DNA of 64,000 bases from Lysobacteraceae bacterium (lineage in GTDB: Bacteria > Pseudomonadota > Gammaproteobacteria > Xanthomonadales > Xanthomonadaceae), in contig JAEUPQ010000026.1 of NCBI GenBank assembly GCA_016789405.1, positions 62,001 to 126,000 on the forward strand, written 5' to 3'. Made by a program: the position numbers and the translations under genes. The notes beneath the pieces were generated by a model that ran no database searches, was not told the origin of the DNA, and worked only from the letters and a program-made list of their open reading frames with translations. Position 1 is the first letter of the stretch, and every line of letters starts with the position of its first letter. Below, piece by piece: positions 5,201 through 30,717 of this stretch.

Positions 5201-7022
5201 CGCGGGCAACCGTGCGTCGCAGACCGATGCGCGCAGCGTCGCCACGACCTACGGTTACGACGCGCTGAACCGGCTGACCTCGGTGTCGGTGCCGACCTCG
5301 TCGCTCAACATCGGCTACGTCTACGACAGCACGCAGACGGCCTGCCAGTCGGGTGAGGGCTACAGTGTCGGCCGCCTGACCCGCATCAACGACGGCAGCG
5401 GCAGTACGGTCTACTGCTACAACCGCTTCGGCGATCTGGTCCGCAAGGTGCAGACCACCAACGGGCAGAGCTTCACCCTGCGCTACCAGTACAACGCTGC
5501 TGGCCAGTTGACGGGCATGGTGTATCCGGATGGCGCGTCGGTCGACTATGCCTACGATGCGCTGGGTCGCGTCAGCGAAATCGGCGCCACGCCGACCGGC
5601 GGCACCCGACAGGTCGTGCTGACCAATGCCACGTACTACCCCTTCGGCCCGGTGGCCGAGTGGAGCTACGGCAACGGCCGCCTGATGAAGCGCTCGCTCA
5701 ACCAGAACTACCAGCCCGGCTTCGTCGAGGTGGTGGGCGCGGGTGGCCTCAGTCTCGGCTACGAGTTCGACCAGGTCGGCAATCTCAAGCGTCTGCGCGG
5801 TGCCGACCAGGCCGATCCGCCGCGTCGCGTCTTCGGCTACGACGGCCTGAACCACCTGACCGAGAACCGCGACGGCGTCAGCAACGCGCTGCTGGAAGGC
5901 TATGCCTACGACAAGACCGGCAACCGCATCAGCGCGACCGTCGGCGCGACCACCACACCGTATAGCTATCCCGCCGGTAGCCACCGTCTCGACAGTGTCG
6001 GCGCCACCGCGCGCAGCTACGACAATGTCGGCAATACCACGCAGATCGGCGGCACGGCGAAGGAGTTCGTCTACAACGACCTGAACCGGATGAGCCAGTA
6101 CCGCGAATCCGGCGTGGCGAAGATGAATTACGTCTACAACGGTCGCGGCGAGCAGGTGCGCAAGCATCTGGGCAGCAGCGACACCTACAGCGTCTACGAT
6201 GAAGCCGGTCGCTGGGTCGGCGATTACAACGGCAGCGGCGCACCGGTGCAGCAGGTTGTCTGGTTCAGCGATCTGCCGGTCGCGGTGCTGGAGGGCGCGT
6301 CCACCGCGCAGAAGCTGTATTACGTCGAAGCCGACATGCTCGGCACCCCGCGCGTGGTCGTGGACCCTGTGCGCGGCGCGACCGGCACAGCGGTGTGGAC
6401 CTGGGATCTCGCAGGCGAAGCCTTCGGCAACACGGCGCCGAATCAGGATCCGGACGGTGACTCCACCGCGTTCGTATTCAACATGCGCTTCCCGGGGCAG
6501 CGGTATGACGCGGCGAGCGGGTTGAATTACAACTACTTCCGGGATTATGAGGCGGCGACCGGGCGGTATGTGGAGAGTGATCCCCAGGGGGTCTTTGGTG
6601 GTACCGCTACGTTCTCTTACGCGCATGGCTTGCCGATGAACCTAATTGACCCGTTTGGGCTGAGGCCGTGTCCTCCTGGAATGGTCCAGAATTCTATGCT
6701 TAGTACCCCTGTGCCCTGTTGGATAGACGACGGCGATGGTCGTGGAAGCGGTTATCCAAATGAAGGGCGTTGCGCCACTGCCGAGTGCGCTGCAGGAATT
6801 CTCCCGAATCCAATTTATTCGCCGAACACACTTTGTCAGATTGATTGCAACGTCAGATTTCAGTGGGTATGCACCGGAGGGACCGTTATTGGCGGCTCAT
6901 TGGGCACGCCTGCGACAGGTTATGTCGTTGGTGGAGGTTGCGTGTTGGCCAAATATTTTATTTGTCGCTGGTCCTGTAAAGACAAGGACGGCGACAGGTG
7001 CGAGATGATCAGGGATGAATAG
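2250..7022 (+). CDS. Exported RHS/YD-repeat protein with a variable Cys-rich C-terminal tip
   Basis: A 1590-residue RHS-family protein. I chose the ATG at 2250, which has GGAAGAG just upstream and begins a signal peptide (about residues 1-34, ending near TAQA); an in-frame GTG at 2190 would hide that signal. From about residue 290 there is a DUF6531-like entry segment (GDKARFETDFEF), then many YD repeats of the type xxYDxxGN, and the RHS core near residues 1357-1470 (ADMLGTPRVV, GLNYNYFRDYEAATGRYVES), ending at the typical IDPFGL. RHS shells enclose a C-terminal toxin that is swapped between strains. Here the 119-residue tip after DPFGL has 11 cysteines and a glycine-rich hydrophobic run (TGGTVIGGSLGTPATGYVVG). 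The DNA turns clearly AT-richer there, suggesting the tip was acquired separately. The stop overlaps the next small gene by 8 bases. Family is certain; toxic activity of the tip is inference. Confidence 0.9.
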   Translation: MRNLKRLQKTSIFGWALAALAVWTPGRDATAQAGDFDYCYAGTCHSTLAAAEAAMNAAHPNYAGYFVPTKGARVGTGYSVLRPLYITYTVPDQPALALEAAAYNASAAPNPAPSMCSPSANPRYPTMCANESDLVAGVAASYQNAHGGTVTSELRGGYGNPYFSSSGLGSPPAGQQPYGQLTHNLQNTASGDPRRWLKIRVFNSEGVNTWTFDIQLFKISSYVCRAGFVGITGRHPNYLDGTQTTVLDPPNLCRATIAEQTITTRLRQSSCPSTQAGNPPFGINPCYPATGDKARFETDFEFAGRPFSRTYHSLRQLGQEPQFAPGWVHAYSDRISGNPSGLYDPMMWTNDSGYLEVFKRVGNSNRFVAEGNAKHLLDVEPTNTLPHKYIITSGDGNTLRYFNQAGRLIRIEGRDNAWKIEFAYGNGRLIAATDQFGSVLTFEYQNNRLSTIRLPDGNTVSYGYDATSNLQSVVYQDGSNKTYHYNETGLSDANDPHALTGITDNGVRYATYGYDNKGRVRLSHFHAPSGQVEKTELSYTGNNQVQVTDRHGGVHNLMLSNDSGYRRVLSTTSSNGTTSNTYNGALALQTTDRLGHVTRYEYDTNRAYVSARYDGYGTNVERKTVTTRDALYRATSILTQEKSGSNYVTKQQQSFTYNSSGQVLTRTTIDPATSQSRTVTTNYCTQADVDAAVCPRVGLVKSVDGARTDVADITTYTYRNADHPDCAASPTTCQYRKGQLWKVTNAAGQVSEILSHDGAGRVLSAKDANGVVTDLEYDARGRMLASKVRGANDASETDDRITRVEYWPTGLVKKVAQPDGSFTSYGYDSAHRLTSIADAEGNSITYTLDGADNRIGEQVKDDQGALMRSLTRTYNTLGQLQSQTDAYGRVTSFTYDADGNLDQSTDALTRVADNNTDPLGRLSRTLQDMNGIAAETKFTYDALDNLTQVNDPKGLNTTYTYNGLGDQTQLQSPDTGTTTYAYDSAGNRASQTDARSVATTYGYDALNRLTSVSVPTSSLNIGYVYDSTQTACQSGEGYSVGRLTRINDGSGSTVYCYNRFGDLVRKVQTTNGQSFTLRYQYNAAGQLTGMVYPDGASVDYAYDALGRVSEIGATPTGGTRQVVLTNATYYPFGPVAEWSYGNGRLMKRSLNQNYQPGFVEVVGAGGLSLGYEFDQVGNLKRLRGADQADPPRRVFGYDGLNHLTENRDGVSNALLEGYAYDKTGNRISATVGATTTPYSYPAGSHRLDSVGATARSYDNVGNTTQIGGTAKEFVYNDLNRMSQYRESGVAKMNYVYNGRGEQVRKHLGSSDTYSVYDEAGRWVGDYNGSGAPVQQVVWFSDLPVAVLEGASTAQKLYYVEADMLGTPRVVVDPVRGATGTAVWTWDLAGEAFGNTAPNQDPDGDSTAFVFNMRFPGQRYDAASGLNYNYFRDYEAATGRYVESDPQGVFGGTATFSYAHGLPMNLIDPFGLRPCPPGMVQNSMLSTPVPCWIDDGDGRGSGYPNEGRCATAECAAGILPNPIYSPNTLCQIDCNVRFQWVCTGGTVIGGSLGTPATGYVVGGGCVLAKYFICRWSCKDKDGDRCEMIRDE

Positions 7023-23723: not shown

Positions 23724-26048
23724 TCAGGCGGGAACTCCCGTTGCTGCCTGCATCGGCTGCGCTTCGGCACGCAACCCGCGGGCCACCCCGACCATGATCT
23801 CCAGCGCGGCGCGCGTTTCAGGCCACTGGCGTGTCTTCAGGCCGCAGTCCGGGTTCACCCACAGCTGTGCGGCGGGCACCACGTCGCGAGCGCGGTCGAC
23901 GAGGGCACGCATCTCCTCGCCGTCGGGGACGCGCGGCGAGTGGATGTCGTACACGCCGGGACCGATGTCGTTCGGATATCGGAATTTCGCGAAGGCATCC
24001 AGCAGTTCCATGCGCGAACGCGAGGTCTCGATCGAGATCACGTCGGCGTCCATGGCGGCGATGGCGTCGATGATGTCGTTGAACTCGGAATAGCACATGT
24101 GGGTGTGGATCTGGGTGTCCGCGGCGACCTCAGCGCAGGTCAGGCGGAAGCAGTCGACGGCCCAGCGCAGGTAATCGTCCCAGGCGTCGCGTCGCAGCGG
24201 CAGGCCTTCGCGGAACGCCGGCTCGTCGATCTGGATCGCGCGGATCCCGGCCTTCTCGAGATCGAGCACTTCGTCTGCGAGTACGAGGGCGAGCTGGCGG
24301 CAGACATCCTCGTGCGGCAGGTCGTCGCGCACGAAGGACCAGCGCAGGATGGTCACCGGGCCTGTCAGCATGCCCTTCACTGGTTTGTCGGTGAGCGACT
24401 GCGCATGCGCGGACCAGCGCACCGTCATCGGTTCCGGACGCACCACGTCGCCGAACAGGATCGGCGGCTTCACGCAGCGCGTGCCGTAGCTCTGCACCCA
24501 GCCCGAGCGCGTGAAGACGAAGCCGTCGAGCAGTTCGCCGAAGTACTCGACCATGTCGTTGCGCTCGAATTCGCCGTGGACCAGCATGTCGAGCCCGACT
24601 TCTTCCTGGAATCGGATGCAGGCCTCGGTTTCCGCGGCGATGAACGTGTCGTAGGCGTCCCGGGCGACCTTGCCTGACTTGAACTTCGCGCGCATCTCGC
24701 GGACGTCGGGCGTCTGCGGGAACGAACCGATCGTCGTGGTCGGGAACGACGGCAGGCCCAGTGCCGATGACTGCAGCGGCTTGCGTTCGGTGTACGCATG
24801 GTGGCGCGTGGAAATGCGCTCGCGGCTTCCTGCGACCCGCGCCGCGACTTCGGGGCGATGTACCTTCGGCGACGCGCGGCGCGAGGCCTGCGCTTCGCGC
24901 GCGCGCTGGAGCGCGTCCGCCGCCTGCGGCAGGTCATCCAGTGCGTCGACGAGCGTGCGCAGTTCGCCGATCTTCTGCAGCGCGAAAGCGAGCCAGCCGA
25001 CGATGTCTTCGGGCAGCCCGCGTTCCACGCGCAGATCGATCGGCACGTGCAGCAGCGAGCACGACGGCGCGATCTGCACGCGGTCGCGGCCGAGCGCGGT
25101 CGCTGCGTATTTCGCCAGCACCAGTGCATCGTCGAGATTCGCGCGCCAGATATTGCGGCCGTCCACCAGGCCGAGGCTGAGCACGCGTCCGTCGCCGGCC
25201 TGCGAGAAACCGGCGCGCAGCACGCGGTCGAGCTGCGCCTTGCCGCGCACGAGGTCCAGGTGCAGCCCGTCCACGGGCAGGCGCGCCACCAGTTCGGTGT
25301 TCTCGCCCAGCGATTCGAACCAGGCGGTCAGCATCAGCTTCGGCCGGCGCGCGTCGCGCAGCACCCGATACGCACGCTCGTACGCGGCCTGCACCTCGGG
25401 CGTGGCGTCGAGCGCGAGGCAGGGCTCGTCGACCTGCACCCATTCGGCGCCGGCGTCGCGCAGGCGTTCCAGCAGCGCGGCATACGCCGGCAGCAGGCGA
25501 TCGAGCAGGGCGAGGCGGTCGCTGCCGTCGACGGTCTTCGACAGCAGCAGGAAACTCACCGGGCCGAGCAGCACCGGCCGCGCATCGTGGCCGGCTTTCT
25601 TCGCTTCGAGGAATTCGGCGACGGGCTTGTCGCCGCGCAGCGCGAAACGCTGGTCGCGATGCAGTTCCGGCACGAGGTAGTGGTAATTCGTGTCGAACCA
25701 CTTGGTCATTTCCAGCGCGCGCAGGTCGTGGCCGTCGCGCTGCAGGCCGCGCGCCAGCGCGAAATAGCCGGCCAGCGGGTCGGCATCGGCCAACGCGCGA
25801 TAGGCGTCGGGAATCGCGTCGAACAGGAAGGCGGTGTCGAGCACGTGGTCGTACAGCGAGAAGTCGTTGCAGGGCACGACGTCGGCACCGGCGTCGCGCT
25901 GTTGCTGCCAGTGGCGGTGGCGCAGCGCGAGCGCGGTGTCGAGCACGGCCTGCCGGTCGCTGCGACCCTGCCAGTAGGCTTCCAGGGTCTGCTTCAGTTC
26001 GCGACGGATCCCGATGCGCGGGAATCCGAGCGTGGTCACGGTGGTCAT
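23724..26048 (-). CDS. metE: Cobalamin-independent methionine synthase
   Basis: MetE transfers the methyl group of 5-methyltetrahydropteroyl-triglutamate to homocysteine without B12. The 774-residue product starts MTTVTTLGFPRIG at the ATG at 26048 (GAGGA 7 bases upstream). The N-terminal half has the usual GxRELKQTLEAYW and the C-terminal barrel the zinc ligands: His and Cys in HTHMCYSEFND, Glu in VISIETSRS and Cys in NPDCGLKTR. Length is typical. The gene is single, ends at the terminator shared with sucD, and has a cobalamin riboswitch in its leader at 26217-26430. B12 should therefore repress it, with a B12-dependent MetH taking over. Confidence 0.97.
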   Translation of the reverse strand: MTTVTTLGFPRIGIRRELKQTLEAYWQGRSDRQAVLDTALALRHRHWQQQRDAGADVVPCNDFSLYDHVLDTAFLFDAIPDAYRALADADPLAGYFALARGLQRDGHDLRALEMTKWFDTNYHYLVPELHRDQRFALRGDKPVAEFLEAKKAGHDARPVLLGPVSFLLLSKTVDGSDRLALLDRLLPAYAALLERLRDAGAEWVQVDEPCLALDATPEVQAAYERAYRVLRDARRPKLMLTAWFESLGENTELVARLPVDGLHLDLVRGKAQLDRVLRAGFSQAGDGRVLSLGLVDGRNIWRANLDDALVLAKYAATALGRDRVQIAPSCSLLHVPIDLRVERGLPEDIVGWLAFALQKIGELRTLVDALDDLPQAADALQRAREAQASRRASPKVHRPEVAARVAGSRERISTRHHAYTERKPLQSSALGLPSFPTTTIGSFPQTPDVREMRAKFKSGKVARDAYDTFIAAETEACIRFQEEVGLDMLVHGEFERNDMVEYFGELLDGFVFTRSGWVQSYGTRCVKPPILFGDVVRPEPMTVRWSAHAQSLTDKPVKGMLTGPVTILRWSFVRDDLPHEDVCRQLALVLADEVLDLEKAGIRAIQIDEPAFREGLPLRRDAWDDYLRWAVDCFRLTCAEVAADTQIHTHMCYSEFNDIIDAIAAMDADVISIETSRSRMELLDAFAKFRYPNDIGPGVYDIHSPRVPDGEEMRALVDRARDVVPAAQLWVNPDCGLKTRQWPETRAALEIMVGVARGLRAEAQPMQAATGVPA

Positions 26049-26140
26049 TGGTGTTGTCCTCATCAGTCTTGCGGATTGGATGAGGAACGAAGGCGGTGCG
26101 CGCGCACCTCCCTTGCGGGCGGCGTACGTGCGGGCGACCT

Positions 26141-26157
26141 TCGCCCCCTCGGGCGAG
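26141..26157 (-). promoter_or_regulatory. Hairpin in the metE leader after the riboswitch
   Basis: On the minus strand CTCGCCC-GAGG-GGGCGA lies between the riboswitch and metE. The same sequence occurs at 26915-26932 in the nrdA leader. It has no T-run, so it is more likely to sequester or pause than to act as a simple terminator. It is part of a longer shared segment (GGCTCGCCCGAGGGGGCGA). Confidence 0.55.
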
Positions 26158-26216
26158 CCGGCCGTGCACGGGATGCGCACGGTCCAGGTCAGTCGACGCG
26201 CATGGGCGCGCCGGCC

Positions 26217-26430
26217 GGGGCAGGTCTTCGGGCTGATGGGCTCGCGACCGTGGTCGCACCTACTGCGCGTCGCTTCCCGGCCGTCCCGTTGCGGGCGAAG
26301 CCAGTGCCAATGACGCGGGTCGTTCCCAATCACCGCTGCGGGGCAGCGCCGGAATGACGTCCGAAGACGCGCACCGGCTTCCCTTTTAATTTCATCTCTC
26401 CATGTGGATGAAGAGATGAAAACCTTCGGC
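26217..26430 (-). promoter_or_regulatory. Cobalamin riboswitch controlling metE
   Basis: Read on the minus strand, the leader has the elements of an adenosyl-/methylcobalamin aptamer: an irregular 5' stem with TTCATCTCT/AGAGATGAA, GGGAAGCCGGTG, CTGCCCCGCAGCGGTGA, the universal GGGAACG and CACTGG segments, and the final B12-box-like stretch (CATCAGCCCGAAGACCTGCC) at about 26220-26240. It precedes metE by about 170 bases. Repression of metE by B12 through this RNA is well established in other bacteria. The 89-base core at 26259-26347 is nearly identical to the plus-strand copy at 26660-26748. Confidence 0.9.
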
Positions 26431-26436
26431 GAGCGA

Positions 26437-26465
26437 ACGATAGGCGCCCCGGGACGGCGCGTCAA
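26437..26465 (-). promoter_or_regulatory. Promoter of the metE leader
   Basis: On the minus strand TTGACG (26465-26460) and TATCGT (26442-26437) are 17 bases apart. This places the start near 26430, just at the 5' end of the riboswitch. Confidence 0.65.
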
Positions 26466-26533
26466 GGCGCTGGAAAGCCGGGGTACGGCGGGATCCGGCG
26501 TGCTTGTCAAGCCTGCCGACAACAATATTTAGT

Positions 26534-26562
26534 GTTGACCATGTGAGTCGTGCACATTATGT
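26534..26562 (+). promoter_or_regulatory. Promoter of the nrdAB leader
   Basis: TTGACC (26534-26539) and TATGTT (26557-26562) are separated by exactly 17 bases. The start would be near 26569, just before the plus-strand riboswitch. The local AT-richness contrasts with the GC-rich leader. Confidence 0.75.
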
Positions 26563-26571
26563 TGTGCCCGT

Positions 26572-26790
26572 CGATGGTGCCTGCTCCTCGCCTGGAGCGG
26601 GCTGAAATGGGAATCCGGTAAGACTGGGGGGCCTCGGAGGCCATCCCGTCGAATCCGGAGCTGCCCCGCAGCGGTAGTTGGGAACGACCTGCGTCAATGG
26701 CACTGGCTTCGCCCGCAACGGGACGGCCGGGAAGCGACGCACAGTAGGAGCGGCTTAGCCGCATGCCCATGAGCCCGAAGACCTGCCTCG
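26572..26790 (+). promoter_or_regulatory. Cobalamin riboswitch controlling nrdAB
   Basis: The sequence runs GGTGCCTGCTCC...GGAGCGGGC, AAATGGGAATCCGGT, a GGGGGCCTC/GAGGCC stem, CTGCCCCGCAGCGGT, GGGAACG, CACTGG, GGGAAGCGACG and the B12 box CATGAGCCCGAAGACCTGCC ending near 26788. These are the conserved blocks of cobalamin riboswitches in the correct order. The first gene after it is nrdA, 240 bases downstream. Riboswitch control of a B12-independent ribonucleotide reductase is known (for example nrdABS in Streptomyces), so B12 should turn off NrdAB here. Confidence 0.92.
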
Positions 26791-26914
26791 ACCCTCGCCA
26801 ATCCGGCGTTGACAGGCCAACCGTCTCCGCGGGGAGCGAAGGTCGATGCGTCACGAAGACGGCCCGTCCGGGTCGCCGTGTCGTCGTCGGTCCTTCCATC
26901 CGCGTCGACGCAGG

Positions 26915-26932
26915 CTCGCCCGAGGGGGCGAG
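26915..26932 (+). promoter_or_regulatory. Hairpin in the nrdA leader after the riboswitch
   Basis: CTCGCCC-GAGG-GGGCGAG, the same element as in the metE leader at 26141-26157. The rest of 26791-27031 has no recognisable gene; it includes CACCGCCTTCG, which also occurs near the metE end of its leader, and GGGAGAG just before nrdA as ribosome-binding site. Confidence 0.55.
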
Positions 26933-27031
26933 GGCCGGTGACGTCGCGAATGCCCCAACCGGCCCACGTGGACCGGCGGTCGTGCGATCCACCGCCTTCG
27001 CTTTCTCTCCATTCGCCACCGGGAGAGACCC

Positions 27032-29488
27032 ATGACCACCGAAACCACCCTCCATTCCGCCGTCGACAGCTCGACGCGCGCCCCCGTCGCCATGCCCGCG
27101 TCTTCCCCCGACGCCGCACAGACCGGCTTCGCCCTGACCCCGCCGCACGCGCCGAACACGATGACCATCACCAAGCGCGATGGTCGTCGCGAGCCGGTCG
27201 ACGTCGGCAAGATCGTCCGTGCGGTGCAGCGCTGCTGCGAAGGACTGGACGACATCGATCCGATGCGCGTCGCGCTGAAGACCATCGCCGGCATCTACGA
27301 CGGTGCGACCACGCGCGAACTGGACGAGCTGTCGATCCGTACTTCGGCCGCGTTCACCGCCGACGAGCCGCAGTACGCGCGCCTTGCCGCGCGCCTGCTC
27401 GCGGCCTACGTCGACAAGGAAGTGACCGGGCAGGGCGTGCACTCGTTCTCGCAGTCGATCGCGCTGGGCGCGGAGCTGGGGCTCATCAACGATCGCGTGC
27501 GCCAGGCGGTGGAAACCCATGCGCGCAAGTTCAATGATGCGATCGACGTCGCGCAGACGCGGCGCTTCGAATACTTCGGCCTGCGCACGCTCTACGATCG
27601 CTACCTGCTGCGCCATCCCGTGCGCCGGCACGTGATCGAGACCCCGCAGCACTTCTTCATGCGCATCGCGGTGTCGCTGACCGAGACGCCCGGCGATGCG
27701 CTCGAACTCTACCGGCTGATGTCCTCGCTGGACTACATCCCCAGCTCGCCGACGATGTTCAACGCCGGCACGCGCCACGAGCAGCTGTCTTCGTGTTTCC
27801 TGCTGGATTCGCCGAAGGATTCGCTGGCCGACATCTACGCGCGCTACGGCGACGTCGCGCAGCTGTCGAAGTTCTCAGGCGGCATCGGCCAGTCCTACTC
27901 GCGCATCCGTTCGCGCGGCGCGCTGATCCGGTCGACGAATGGCCGCAGCAACGGCATCGTGCCCTGGCTGAAGACGCTGGATGCCTCGGTCGCCGCGGTG
28001 AACCAGGGCGGCAAGCGCAAGGGCGCGGCCTGCATCTACCTCGAAACCTGGCATGCCGACATCGAGGAGTTCCTCGAACTGCGCGACAACACCGGCGACG
28101 AGATGCGCCGTACGCACAACCTGAATCTCGCCAACTGGGTGCCGGACCTGTTCATGCGCCGCGTCGAGAGCGACGGTGACTGGTCGCTGTTCGATCCGAA
28201 CGTGGTGCCGGAATTCGTCGACCTGTGGGGTGAAGCCTTCGAGCAGGCCTATGTGCAGGCCGAACAGCAAGGGCTCGCTTCGCGTACGGTCAAGGCACGG
28301 GACCTCTACGCACGGATGATGAAAGTGCTTGGCGAGACCGGCAACGGCTGGATGACCTTCAAGGACGCCTCGAACCGCGCCTGCAACCAGGTGGGTCCCG
28401 GTCGCACGGTGCACCTGTCGAACCTGTGCACCGAGATCATCGAAGTCACGTCGGCGGAAGAGACCGCGGTCTGCAACCTCGGTTCGGTGAACCTGGCGCA
28501 GCACCTCGTCGAGGACGAACGCGGCGGCTACGCCTTCGACTTCGACAAGCTCGCCGAAACCGTACGTGTGGCCGTGCGCCAGCTCGACCGCGTCATCGAC
28601 CTCAACTTCTATCCGATCGAATCCACGCGCCGCTCGAACCTGCGCTGGCGCCCGGTCGGTCTCGGCGTGATGGGCCTGCAGGACGTGTTCTTCCGCATGC
28701 GCCTGCCGTTCGATTCCGCAGAGGCACTGGCGCTGTCGACGCGCATCGCCGAGCGCATCTACCTGCACGCGCTGGAAACCTCGTGCGAGCTGGCAGAGCG
28801 CAACGGCGCGCATCCGGCCTACGCCGAGACCCGCGCGGCGATGGGCGCGCTGCAGTTCGATCTGTGGGGCGTGAAGCCTTCGGACCCGGAGGCCTGGGCT
28901 GCGTTGAAGCCGCGCATCGCCGCGCATGGCTTGCGCAACTCGCTGCTGATCGCGATCGCGCCCACGGCGACCATCGCATCGATCGCGGGCTGCTACGAAT
29001 GCATCGAGCCGCAGGTCAGCAACCTGTTCAAGCGCGAGACGCTGTCGGGCGACTTCCTGCAGATCAACCGTTATCTGGTGTGGGAGCTGAAGCGCCTTGG
29101 CCTGTGGACCGATGCGACACGCGACGCGATCAAGCTCGCCGAAGGCTCGGTGCAGGGCATCGACGGGATTCCGGAGGTGCTCAAGTCCGTCTATCGCACC
29201 GCATGGGAATTGCCGCAGAAGGCGCTGATCGACCTCGCCGCCGCACGCGGCCCGTACATCGACCAGTCGCAGTCGCTCAACCTCTTCATGGAAAGCCCCA
29301 ACATCGGCCGACTGTCCTCGATGTACATGTACGCGTGGAAGTCGGGGCTGAAGACGACCTACTACCTGCGTTCGCGTCCGGCCACGCGCATCGCCAAGGC
29401 CACGGTGGCGGCCCAGCCGACCTACACGCCGCAGGAAGCCCTGGCCTGCTCGCTTGAAAATCCCGAAGCCTGCGAGGCGTGCCAGTAA
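27032..29488 (+). CDS. nrdA: Class Ia ribonucleoside-diphosphate reductase, alpha subunit
   Basis: NrdA reduces ribonucleoside diphosphates to deoxyribonucleotides, using a radical from NrdB. The 818-residue product begins with a Pro/Ala-rich stretch, then an ATP-cone (MTITKRDGRREPVDVGKIVRAVQ) that senses ATP/dATP, followed by the barrel with the active-site Cys pair partner in SSCFLLDSP, NLCTEI and AVCNLGSVNL, and the C-terminal redox pair in ENPEACEACQ. The ATG at 27032 has GGGAGAG 5 bases upstream. nrdB follows after 218 bases that contain a repeat element. A cobalamin riboswitch in the leader should shut the operon off when B12 is available for a B12-dependent reductase. Confidence 0.96.
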   Translation: MTTETTLHSAVDSSTRAPVAMPASSPDAAQTGFALTPPHAPNTMTITKRDGRREPVDVGKIVRAVQRCCEGLDDIDPMRVALKTIAGIYDGATTRELDELSIRTSAAFTADEPQYARLAARLLAAYVDKEVTGQGVHSFSQSIALGAELGLINDRVRQAVETHARKFNDAIDVAQTRRFEYFGLRTLYDRYLLRHPVRRHVIETPQHFFMRIAVSLTETPGDALELYRLMSSLDYIPSSPTMFNAGTRHEQLSSCFLLDSPKDSLADIYARYGDVAQLSKFSGGIGQSYSRIRSRGALIRSTNGRSNGIVPWLKTLDASVAAVNQGGKRKGAACIYLETWHADIEEFLELRDNTGDEMRRTHNLNLANWVPDLFMRRVESDGDWSLFDPNVVPEFVDLWGEAFEQAYVQAEQQGLASRTVKARDLYARMMKVLGETGNGWMTFKDASNRACNQVGPGRTVHLSNLCTEIIEVTSAEETAVCNLGSVNLAQHLVEDERGGYAFDFDKLAETVRVAVRQLDRVIDLNFYPIESTRRSNLRWRPVGLGVMGLQDVFFRMRLPFDSAEALALSTRIAERIYLHALETSCELAERNGAHPAYAETRAAMGALQFDLWGVKPSDPEAWAALKPRIAAHGLRNSLLIAIAPTATIASIAGCYECIEPQVSNLFKRETLSGDFLQINRYLVWELKRLGLWTDATRDAIKLAEGSVQGIDGIPEVLKSVYRTAWELPQKALIDLAAARGPYIDQSQSLNLFMESPNIGRLSSMYMYAWKSGLKTTYYLRSRPATRIAKATVAAQPTYTPQEALACSLENPEACEACQ

Positions 29489-29523
29489 CGCGGGCTCAAT
29501 CCCGCCAACACATTCACCGCCAC

Positions 29524-29659
29524 CGTAGAGCGGAGCTTGCTCCGCTCGAAAATGTCCGAAATACAGCGGAGCTTGCTCTGCTCGAAAATGTCCGAAATGC
29601 AGCGGAGCTTGCTCCGCTCGAACGTGTCGAAGACCAAGCGGAGCAAGCTCCGCTCTACG
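29524..29659. repeat. Inverted-repeat element with three 36-bp tandem units between nrdA and nrdB
   Basis: The element is bounded by an 18-bp perfect inverted repeat, CGTAGAGCGGAGCTTGCT (29524-29541) and its complement (29642-29659). Inside are three direct 36-base units starting at 29530, 29566 and 29602, each opening with the palindrome GCGGAGCTTGCTCCGC (the second has one change), separated by CGAAAATGTCCGAAATRCA. The third is more divergent. It resembles scattered palindromic repeats of this bacterial group. In the nrdAB transcript each unit can fold into a stem, so it may affect mRNA stability. Confidence 0.8.
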
Positions 29660-29706
29660 AAAAGCCACCCAACCTTCTCCCGCACGGGGGAGGCAGGAAC
29701 CAAGTC

Positions 29707-30717
29707 ATGACCATGCAACACCTGCTCGATCCCGGCTTCGCGCTCACACTGCGGCCGATGCGCTATCCGGCGTTCTACGAGATGTATCGCGACGCCATCC
29801 GCAACACCTGGACGGTGGAGGAGATCGATTTCGGTATCGACCTCAACGACCTCCAGCACAAGCTCTCGCCATCCGACCGACATCTGATCGAGCGTCTGGT
29901 CGCGTTCTTTGCGACCGGCGACAGCATCGTTTCCAACAACCTCGTGCTGAATCTGTACAAGCACATCAACGCGCCGGAAGCGCGGATGTACCTGTCGCGC
30001 CAACTCTACGAGGAGGCGCTGCACGTGCAGTTCTACCTCACGCTGCTCGACGCCTACATTCCCGACCCGCAGCGCCGGAACGAGGCCTTCGCGGCAATCG
30101 AGAACATTCCCTCGATCCGCGCGAAGGCCGACTTCTGCTTCCGCTGGATGGATTCGGTGCAGTCGCTCGACCGGCTGGAAACCCGCGACCAGCGTCGGCA
30201 GTTCCTGCTCAACCTGATCTGTTTCGCCTGCTGCATCGAGGGCCTGTTCTTCTTCGCCGCGTTCGCCTACGTCTGGTTCCTGCGCTCGCGCGGCCTGCTG
30301 CCCGGTCTCGCGGCGGGCACCAACTGGGTGTTCCGCGACGAATCCGGCCACATGGCCTTCGCCTTCGAAGTGATCCGCACCGCGCGACAGGAAGATCCGG
30401 GCCTGTTCGACGCCGGATTGGAGGGCGATGTTCGCCGGATGATGCACGAGGCGATCGAGGTGGAAGCCGCCTTCGCCGAAGACGTGCTGTCCGGCGGGGT
30501 GAATGGCCTCTCGCCGGGCGAGATGAAGCAGTACCTGCGCTATGTCGCCGACCAGCGCCTCGCGGCGCTCGGCCTTGCGCCGGAGTTCGGCGCGAAGAAC
30601 CCGTTCCCGTTCCTGGACCTGCAGGACGTGCAGGAGCTGACCAATTTCTTCGAGCGCCGGGTCTCGGCGTACCAGGTCGGCATCAGCGGCGCGGTGGCGT
30701 TCGACGATGCGTTCTGA
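29707..30717 (+). CDS. nrdB: Class Ia ribonucleoside-diphosphate reductase, beta subunit
   Basis: NrdB houses the diiron-tyrosyl radical cofactor. The 336-residue product has all expected ligands: D72, E103 and H106 in YEEALHVQFY, the radical Tyr Y110 (E-x2-H-x3-Y), a Glu in CCIEGLFFF, and Glu and His in FRDESGHMAF. The ATG at 29707 is preceded by AGGAA at about 9 bases and gives the standard N-terminus; an open frame extends upstream through the repeat element because its 36-base units keep frame, but that extension is repeat-encoded and unlikely to be translated. It overlaps the thioesterase gene by 11 bases. Confidence 0.96.
   Translation: MTMQHLLDPGFALTLRPMRYPAFYEMYRDAIRNTWTVEEIDFGIDLNDLQHKLSPSDRHLIERLVAFFATGDSIVSNNLVLNLYKHINAPEARMYLSRQLYEEALHVQFYLTLLDAYIPDPQRRNEAFAAIENIPSIRAKADFCFRWMDSVQSLDRLETRDQRRQFLLNLICFACCIEGLFFFAAFAYVWFLRSRGLLPGLAAGTNWVFRDESGHMAFAFEVIRTARQEDPGLFDAGLEGDVRRMMHEAIEVEAAFAEDVLSGGVNGLSPGEMKQYLRYVADQRLAALGLAPEFGAKNPFPFLDLQDVQELTNFFERRVSAYQVGISGAVAFDDAF

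Follow-up and report, generated by a model that had tools for sequence, protein, structure and literature searches.

The 64-kb window, which here means the whole stretch of DNA that was analysed, contains the gene order sucC-sucD-metE, two riboswitches, nrdA. The metE gene, coding for the B12-independent methionine synthase, extends from 23724 to 26048 on the reverse strand and matches TIGR01371 with 1044.5 bits (cut-off 929.95). On the forward strand, nrdA (27032-29488) codes for the alpha subunit of class I ribonucleotide reductase (RNR; TIGR02506, 719.2 bits, cut-off 341.05). An earlier note on this DNA had named these two genes of B12-independent isozymes as the riboswitch targets, and the two models confirm the identification. 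The nrdB gene, coding for the beta subunit, follows at 29479-30717 on the forward strand. Its start is uncertain; the best model, PRK07209 (cut-off 309), gave a lower score of 254.5 bits and aligns from residue 91 onward. A 36-bp tandem repeat of 3.5 copies (29529-29655) lies inside the nrdB frame, ahead of the part covered by the NrdB model (from about residue 90). This repeat region may be non-coding, with the nrdB start further downstream. When one of them is inverted, the start regions of metE (26028-26052) and nrdA (27028-27052) show 84% similarity; they code for MTTVTTL and MTTETTL, respectively.

The region between metE and nrdA was searched with covariance models (cmscan with Rfam gathering thresholds, 31.5 bits for RF00174). 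A full-length cobalamin riboswitch (RF00174, model positions 1-189) was found on each strand, and these are the sole Rfam matches in the window. The metE aptamer occupies 26202-26443 on the reverse strand (93.5 bits, E 5.9e-22) and the nrdA aptamer 26557-26804 on the forward strand (85.4 bits, E 1.2e-19). The presence of two complete riboswitches, one per strand, as proposed from the letters, is thus verified. The pair spans 26202-26804, the interval of 26217-26790 first proposed running from B12 box to B12 box. Each aptamer carries the B12 box CCCGAAGACCTGCC towards its 3′ end, and the leaders extend to the start codons at 26048 (metE) and 27032 (nrdA). No SAM riboswitch was matched by Rfam within the 64-kb window. 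The genome contains four RF00174 elements, the remaining two preceding genes of TonB-dependent B12 receptors.

A consensus scan of positions 25900-27100 gave two sigma-70-like sites, for a mean of 0.1 in shuffled sequences. One, TTGACG-17-TATCGT (26437-26465, reverse strand, 9/12), is positioned to serve metE, and the other, TTGACC-17-TATGTT (26535-26563, forward strand, 9/12), to serve nrdA. The promoters do not overlap, their -35 hexamers being about 70 bp apart. In an alignment, the metE hexamers recur in a genome of the same genus, G115, and the nrdA promoter is also found in the nrdA leaders of the genus. The claim that each riboswitch has its own promoter therefore agrees with the consensus matches. 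Both strands of the same region were scanned for intrinsic terminators and no terminator-like site was found (shuffle mean 0.7). Intrinsic termination was consequently rejected as the mechanism.

The nrdA promoter also carries a pair of NrdR-box-like sites, CAATATTTAGTGT (26523-26535) and CATTATGTTGTGC (26555-26567), which together cover 26523-26567 on the forward strand with a spacing of 32 bp. They score 22/26 against what we take to be the NrdR box consensus. The pair overlaps the promoter hexamers, the second box lying on the -10. In the NrdR regulon, paired AT-rich palindrome-like boxes stand about 31-32 bp apart. A pair was observed upstream of 41 nrdA aptamers, with a spacing of 32 bp in 39 of them and of 31 bp in two. 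Scores were 18-22 of 26 in 40 of these leaders and 13 in the last one (G212); the corresponding stretches before 30 of the 70 metE aptamers scored 9-14. The shuffles used for comparison preserved base composition only, and promoter conservation adds to the score because the second site coincides in part with the -10 hexamer. Overall, nrdAB is probably under the control of NrdR as well. In the open-licence literature, no paper was found that brings together NrdR, a B12 riboswitch and nrdAB.

Downstream of the aptamers, and outside the RF00174 model, the two leaders follow a common plan: a hairpin (hairpin 2) comes first, then a CYUUCGYU box, and finally a Shine-Dalgarno hairpin adjoining the start codon. 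Hairpin 2, CGCCCGAGGGGGCG, is located at 26142-26155 on the reverse strand in the metE leader (motif and family pattern) and at 26917-26930 on the forward strand in the nrdA leader (motif match). The motif CGCCCGMGGGGGCG occurs twice in the window, both times in these leaders, for an expected number of 0.02. On the metE side (26058-26093, reverse strand), the box CCTTCGTT (26086-26093) is followed by the Shine-Dalgarno hairpin CCTCATC/GATGAGG (26058-26085). On the nrdA side (26995-27028, forward strand), the box CCTTCGCT (26995-27002) is followed by the hairpin TCTCTCC/GGAGAGA (27004-27028). Loop L5 of the aptamers reads CCCCG, and GGGG-bearing hairpins were recognized downstream by eye. In the nrdA leader, hairpin 1, CTCCGCGGGGAG (26825-26836, forward strand, found by eye), is a candidate L13 partner of L5. 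The hairpin-1 pattern is present in 34 of the 70 metE leaders of the family and missing from that of the window. In the latter (26049-26201), B12 box and start are 170 nt apart, most metE leaders of the family being longer, mostly 203-257 nt.

Across the family, the hairpin-2 pattern is present in 68 of 70 metE leaders; in 66 of 70, the box is succeeded by a helix that takes in the Shine-Dalgarno region. This helix has at least 4 pairs in all 66 leaders, and just 4 pairs in four of them. As a control, a helix of at least 5 pairs was found after a random 8-mer at 836 of 1400 positions. The helix count is therefore weak by itself, and the argument rests on the position of the helix and on paired changes of its arms. 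Such changes were observed in 14 of the 66 helices, with CCTGC(G)/(C)GCAGG in 13 cases and CCTCTTG/CAAGAGG in one. In 66/66 metE leaders, 8-12 pairs are possible between the box and the 3′ arm of hairpin 2, whereas such pairing occurred in 187 of 14982 control windows (1.25%). Ten such pairs are also possible in all 17 nrdA leaders of the NrdA subclade to which the window belongs (identity of at least 84%; the next genome is at 77%).

These 17 nrdA leaders all show the metE-like plan. Box and helix are present in the five nrdA leaders of the genus; among 40 others, two are positive (G101 and G008), both inside the NrdA subclade. A further set of loci among L038-L094, which gave no hits, is left out of this count, since in several of them (for example L076, L082, L085, L087, L089, L090 and L093) the gene begins elsewhere than at base 6001 and another stretch was read. 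Ten nrdA leaders outside the subclade look different by eye. Since, among the nrdA leaders compared, the plan was seen inside the subclade, the nrdA riboswitch seems to join an aptamer of nrdA type to a platform like that of metE, which it would have obtained by exchange or by convergence. The hairpin/box/Shine-Dalgarno platform constitutes a new anatomy, and it suggests translational OFF switches.

With the aptamer left out of the fold, the predicted probability of the Shine-Dalgarno helix was 0.97 in the metE leader and 0.96 in the nrdA leader. In the minimum-energy fold of the metE leader, the Shine-Dalgarno hairpin and the box helix coexist. Hairpin 2 and the box helix are balanced in the metE leader (0.45 each); in the nrdA leader hairpin 2 reaches 0.94 and the box helix 0.03.

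The genome was then searched for the B12-dependent counterparts of the two isozymes. As the earlier note had anticipated, a metH gene is present (PF02965, 425 bits, cut-off 25), in the form of a 269-amino-acid piece whose best NCBIfam matches are MetH models, below their full-length cut-offs. B12 uptake genes, which the note had proposed to look for, were found as two TonB-dependent receptors above the TIGR01779 cut-off, each behind an RF00174 element. A cob(I)alamin adenosyltransferase gene (TIGR00708) is present. The expectation of an nrdJ gene was not borne out in the 94.45%-complete draft, in which the sole PF02867 match is nrdA itself. The note had held that a genome lacking metH and nrdJ would speak against its reading; on paper, half of this holds, because the draft contains no nrdJ. 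A search of the draft with PF13597 for nrdD gave no match either. Among ten genomes of the same genus, seven have PF02867 matches, all with one of nrdJ type (checked with TIGR02504 in two of them), and four of these seven also have nrdA. No PF02867 match was found in the other three (G228, G189 and G216, 75-86% complete). In three genomes of the genus (G013, G061 and G204), an nrdJ-type match goes along with no metE or nrdA match at the cut-offs used, so that these bacteria may need B12 for growth.

Taken together, the data make it likely that the locus consists of two separate, promoter-bearing riboswitches, juxtaposed, each acting as a translational OFF switch for its isozyme gene. With plentiful B12, each riboswitch would repress translation of its own gene, metE or nrdAB, and MetH and, if present, NrdJ would take over. 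Judging from the riboswitch class and the targets, metE and nrdAB are probably switched by B12 at the same time. The aptamers, their targets, the consensus promoters and the leader plan are directly visible in the sequence; from them we infer B12 binding, the OFF sign and the coupling. According to the accessible part of one study, the corrinoid riboswitches known up to then were repressors, save one activating case (PMC10653944). As a precedent, the available text on the Mycobacterium tuberculosis metE switch describes a translational OFF switch in which a kissing hairpin is combined with an anti-TIR and a TIR (PMC11260477). In the coupling that we favour, upon B12 binding, loop L5 would kiss a GGGG-bearing downstream hairpin; hairpin 2 would then stay closed and the Shine-Dalgarno hairpin would stand. 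When B12 is missing, the 3′ arm of hairpin 2 would pair with the box and disturb the Shine-Dalgarno hairpin. This detailed coupling is a tentative model that we rate as somewhat less probable than not. Its simple reading is weakened because the Shine-Dalgarno hairpin is predicted in folds without the aptamer and coexists with the box helix in metE, and because the box helix is improbable in the folded nrdA leader.

Two other readings of the regulation have to be weighed against translational OFF switching of both genes. The riboswitches may act mainly on transcription, through Rho-dependent termination in the leaders, the Shine-Dalgarno hairpin being secondary. The length of the leaders from aptamer to start (150-230 nt) and the lack of an intrinsic terminator in 25900-27100 would fit this view, as would M. 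tuberculosis metE, for which the available text reports B12-enhanced termination beside translational control and suggests Rho (PMC11260477). The presence of a Shine-Dalgarno hairpin beside the start codon, conserved with paired changes, argues against it, and we regard a mainly transcriptional mode as unlikely. The other reading takes the absence of nrdJ and nrdD at face value, as the single PF02867 match and the negative PF13597 search would allow. The B12 riboswitch would then control the sole RNR of the cell; unless growth were limited by B12, such a switch would need to act partially or as an activator. However, the seven genomes of the genus with any PF02867 match all have the nrdJ type. 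Genomes of the genus share a block in which nrdJ stands with genes for a TSCPD protein, a DegP-like protease, an AI-2E transporter, a HAD hydrolase, an M17 peptidase and a GDSL lipase. This entire block has no near-identical match in the draft, where only short or divergent matches were obtained. The syntenic contig that comes nearest, C25, measures just 6.7 kb, and its beginning corresponds to a point about 11 kb away from the position of nrdJ in G115. The missing block and the fragmentary contig point to an assembly gap, which probably accounts for the absence of nrdJ from the draft; true loss of nrdJ and nrdD appears improbable.

In order to situate this arrangement, 247 genomes, evenly drawn from the family, were searched for metE (E up to 1e-100) and nrdA (E up to 1e-200). 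The two genes were detected in 70 and 149 genomes, respectively, and both in 43. An RF00174 element lies upstream of metE, on the same strand, in 70/70 cases. The available text of a study of Xanthomonadales names MetR or SamR as the regulator of metE and does not mention a B12 riboswitch (PMC4239095). In the genomes having both genes, RF00174 precedes nrdA in 34 of 43 (16/20 and 15/20 in two sets, plus G016, the present genome and G115). metE and nrdA are less than 20 kb apart in 30 of these 43 genomes, in all three orientations: convergent in 15, tandem in 13 and head to head in 2, the present genome and G115. In 3 genomes they share a contig at a distance of more than 20 kb, and in 10 they were found on separate contigs. 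Thus, metE and nrdA are frequently neighbours but seldom divergent, the latter as the earlier note had supposed. Each riboswitch is of an ordinary type within the family, and the head-to-head arrangement amounts to a rearrangement at this locus rather than a novel mechanism. We found no description of a divergent metE/nrdAB pair of B12 riboswitches in the open-licence literature, as far as its accessible text goes. The rearrangements of this isozyme cluster could be studied across the family. In one genome (G130), a TPP riboswitch (64.5 bits, L193:1326-1419) was observed downstream of metE.

Three genomes of the genus (G137, G089 and G156) have the order sucD-riboswitch-nrdA without a metE match, their suc genes being named by eye. 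The simpler reading is that metE was gained in the present lineage rather than lost from these three. The metE aptamers of the present genome and of G115 are 93% identical, and the window nrdA aptamer shares 81-87% identity with those found before nrdA elsewhere in the genus; these identities indicate that two separate, older riboswitches were juxtaposed. In the ancestor of the present genome and G115, metE, with its riboswitch already attached, would have ended up between sucD and the nrdA riboswitch. In a later step, a stretch of the nrdA aptamer would have been copied into the metE aptamer. An alternative is that one of the two riboswitches originated on the spot by inverted duplication of the other, in either direction. 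An inverted repeat of 99 nt, whose arms lie inside the metE aptamer (26255-26353, reverse strand) and the nrdA aptamer (26654-26752, forward strand) and are 93% complementary, could suggest this, as could the similar blocks of the leaders and start regions. However, RF00174 precedes every family metE, the metE aptamer has its close counterpart in G115, and 93 of the 194 columns beyond the shared segment are different between the window aptamers. With a riboswitch on 70/70 metE genes and strong divergence outside one segment, in-place inverted duplication was rejected as most improbable.

The juxtaposition of two older riboswitches leaves the shared segment to be accounted for. In an alignment of the window aptamers, a 63-column segment, picked after the inverted repeat had been seen, contains 3 differing columns, as compared to the 93/194 elsewhere (Fisher p 2e-11). 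Such near identity suggests gene conversion between the aptamers. The metE aptamers of the present genome and G115 differ at 8/65 positions in the segment and at 15/180 elsewhere. A loop extension, CCCGCAACGGG, is present in 7 of 107 aptamers, which are exactly the five nrdA and the two metE aptamers of the genus. Since CCCGCAACGGG is carried by the nrdA copies even in genomes without a metE match, the copying most plausibly went from nrdA to metE.

We then looked for signs of exchange across the family. In a multiple alignment, identity within a genome exceeded that across genomes by 5.2 points in the present genome, 10.6 in G115 and 14.7 in both G217 and G116. Since in the latter two the genes are in tandem, the divergent layout is not required for aptamer similarity. 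This alignment superseded a pairwise comparison with lenient gap costs, which inflated the within-genome identities (75-88%) and showed no excess for the window pair. For the segment, the mean within-genome identity was 0.697, versus 0.621 with shuffled partners (maximum of 5000 shuffles 0.665), kinship being ignored in this comparison. In 7 of 34 genomes, the top-ranking nrdA aptamer was that of the genome itself, the median rank of the own copy being 6.5 of 37. Family-wide backing for conversion is therefore mixed, G158 appearing as the clearest independent case. In the open-licence literature, as far as its accessible text goes, gene conversion between riboswitches was not found described. 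A broader idea, which we put forward as a speculation with the balance against it, is that the opposed riboswitches evolve in concert, conversion copying aptamer segments, and perhaps, earlier, the whole expression platform, between the operons. If so, methionine and DNA-precursor synthesis would keep the same B12 set point.

Overall, the locus joins components that are common in the family in an uncommon layout, with a conserved platform and hints that the copies have exchanged sequence, and a function can be proposed from these features. Two classical B12-independent isozymes are placed under two B12 sensors within one 1-kb intergenic region. The near-twin aptamers, residing in one cell, offer a test of a shared set point and of sequence exchange between riboswitches for the same ligand. 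The conserved hairpin/box/Shine-Dalgarno platform, outside the Rfam model, provides a concrete and mutable model for metE control in the family.

Several known systems resemble parts of the locus. As in the NrdR regulon, a box pair with 32-bp spacing lies on the window nrdA promoter, although NrdR itself is not a riboswitch. The nrdABS operon of Streptomyces reportedly has a single riboswitch. It is described, in the part of the source available, as being under a cobalamin riboswitch, the title of the cited study referring to transcription (Borovok 2006, in PMC5962746). It shares with the window a class I RNR operon with a B12 riboswitch, whereas the platform here looks translational. As far as the accessible text goes, the M. 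tuberculosis metE switch (PMC11260477) has in common with the present one the RF00174 aptamer and the metE target, and the leader plan resembles its kissing hairpin/anti-TIR/TIR; here, in contrast, an opposed nrdAB riboswitch lies about 110 bp away. The SAM-cobalamin tandem at metE of Priestia megaterium, as presented in the available text (PMC9600662), likewise associates RF00174 with metE, whereas the window has no SAM riboswitch match and a second, opposed riboswitch for nrdAB. A similar layout was found in Oleiagrimonas sp. C23AA, which belongs to another NCBI family, the Rhodanobacteraceae, and where an opposed RF00174 pair (L045:5011-5651; 76.9 and 93.0 bits) has nrdA on one side. The gene opposite nrdA is there not metE but that of a TonB-dependent B12 receptor (btuB, TIGR01779).
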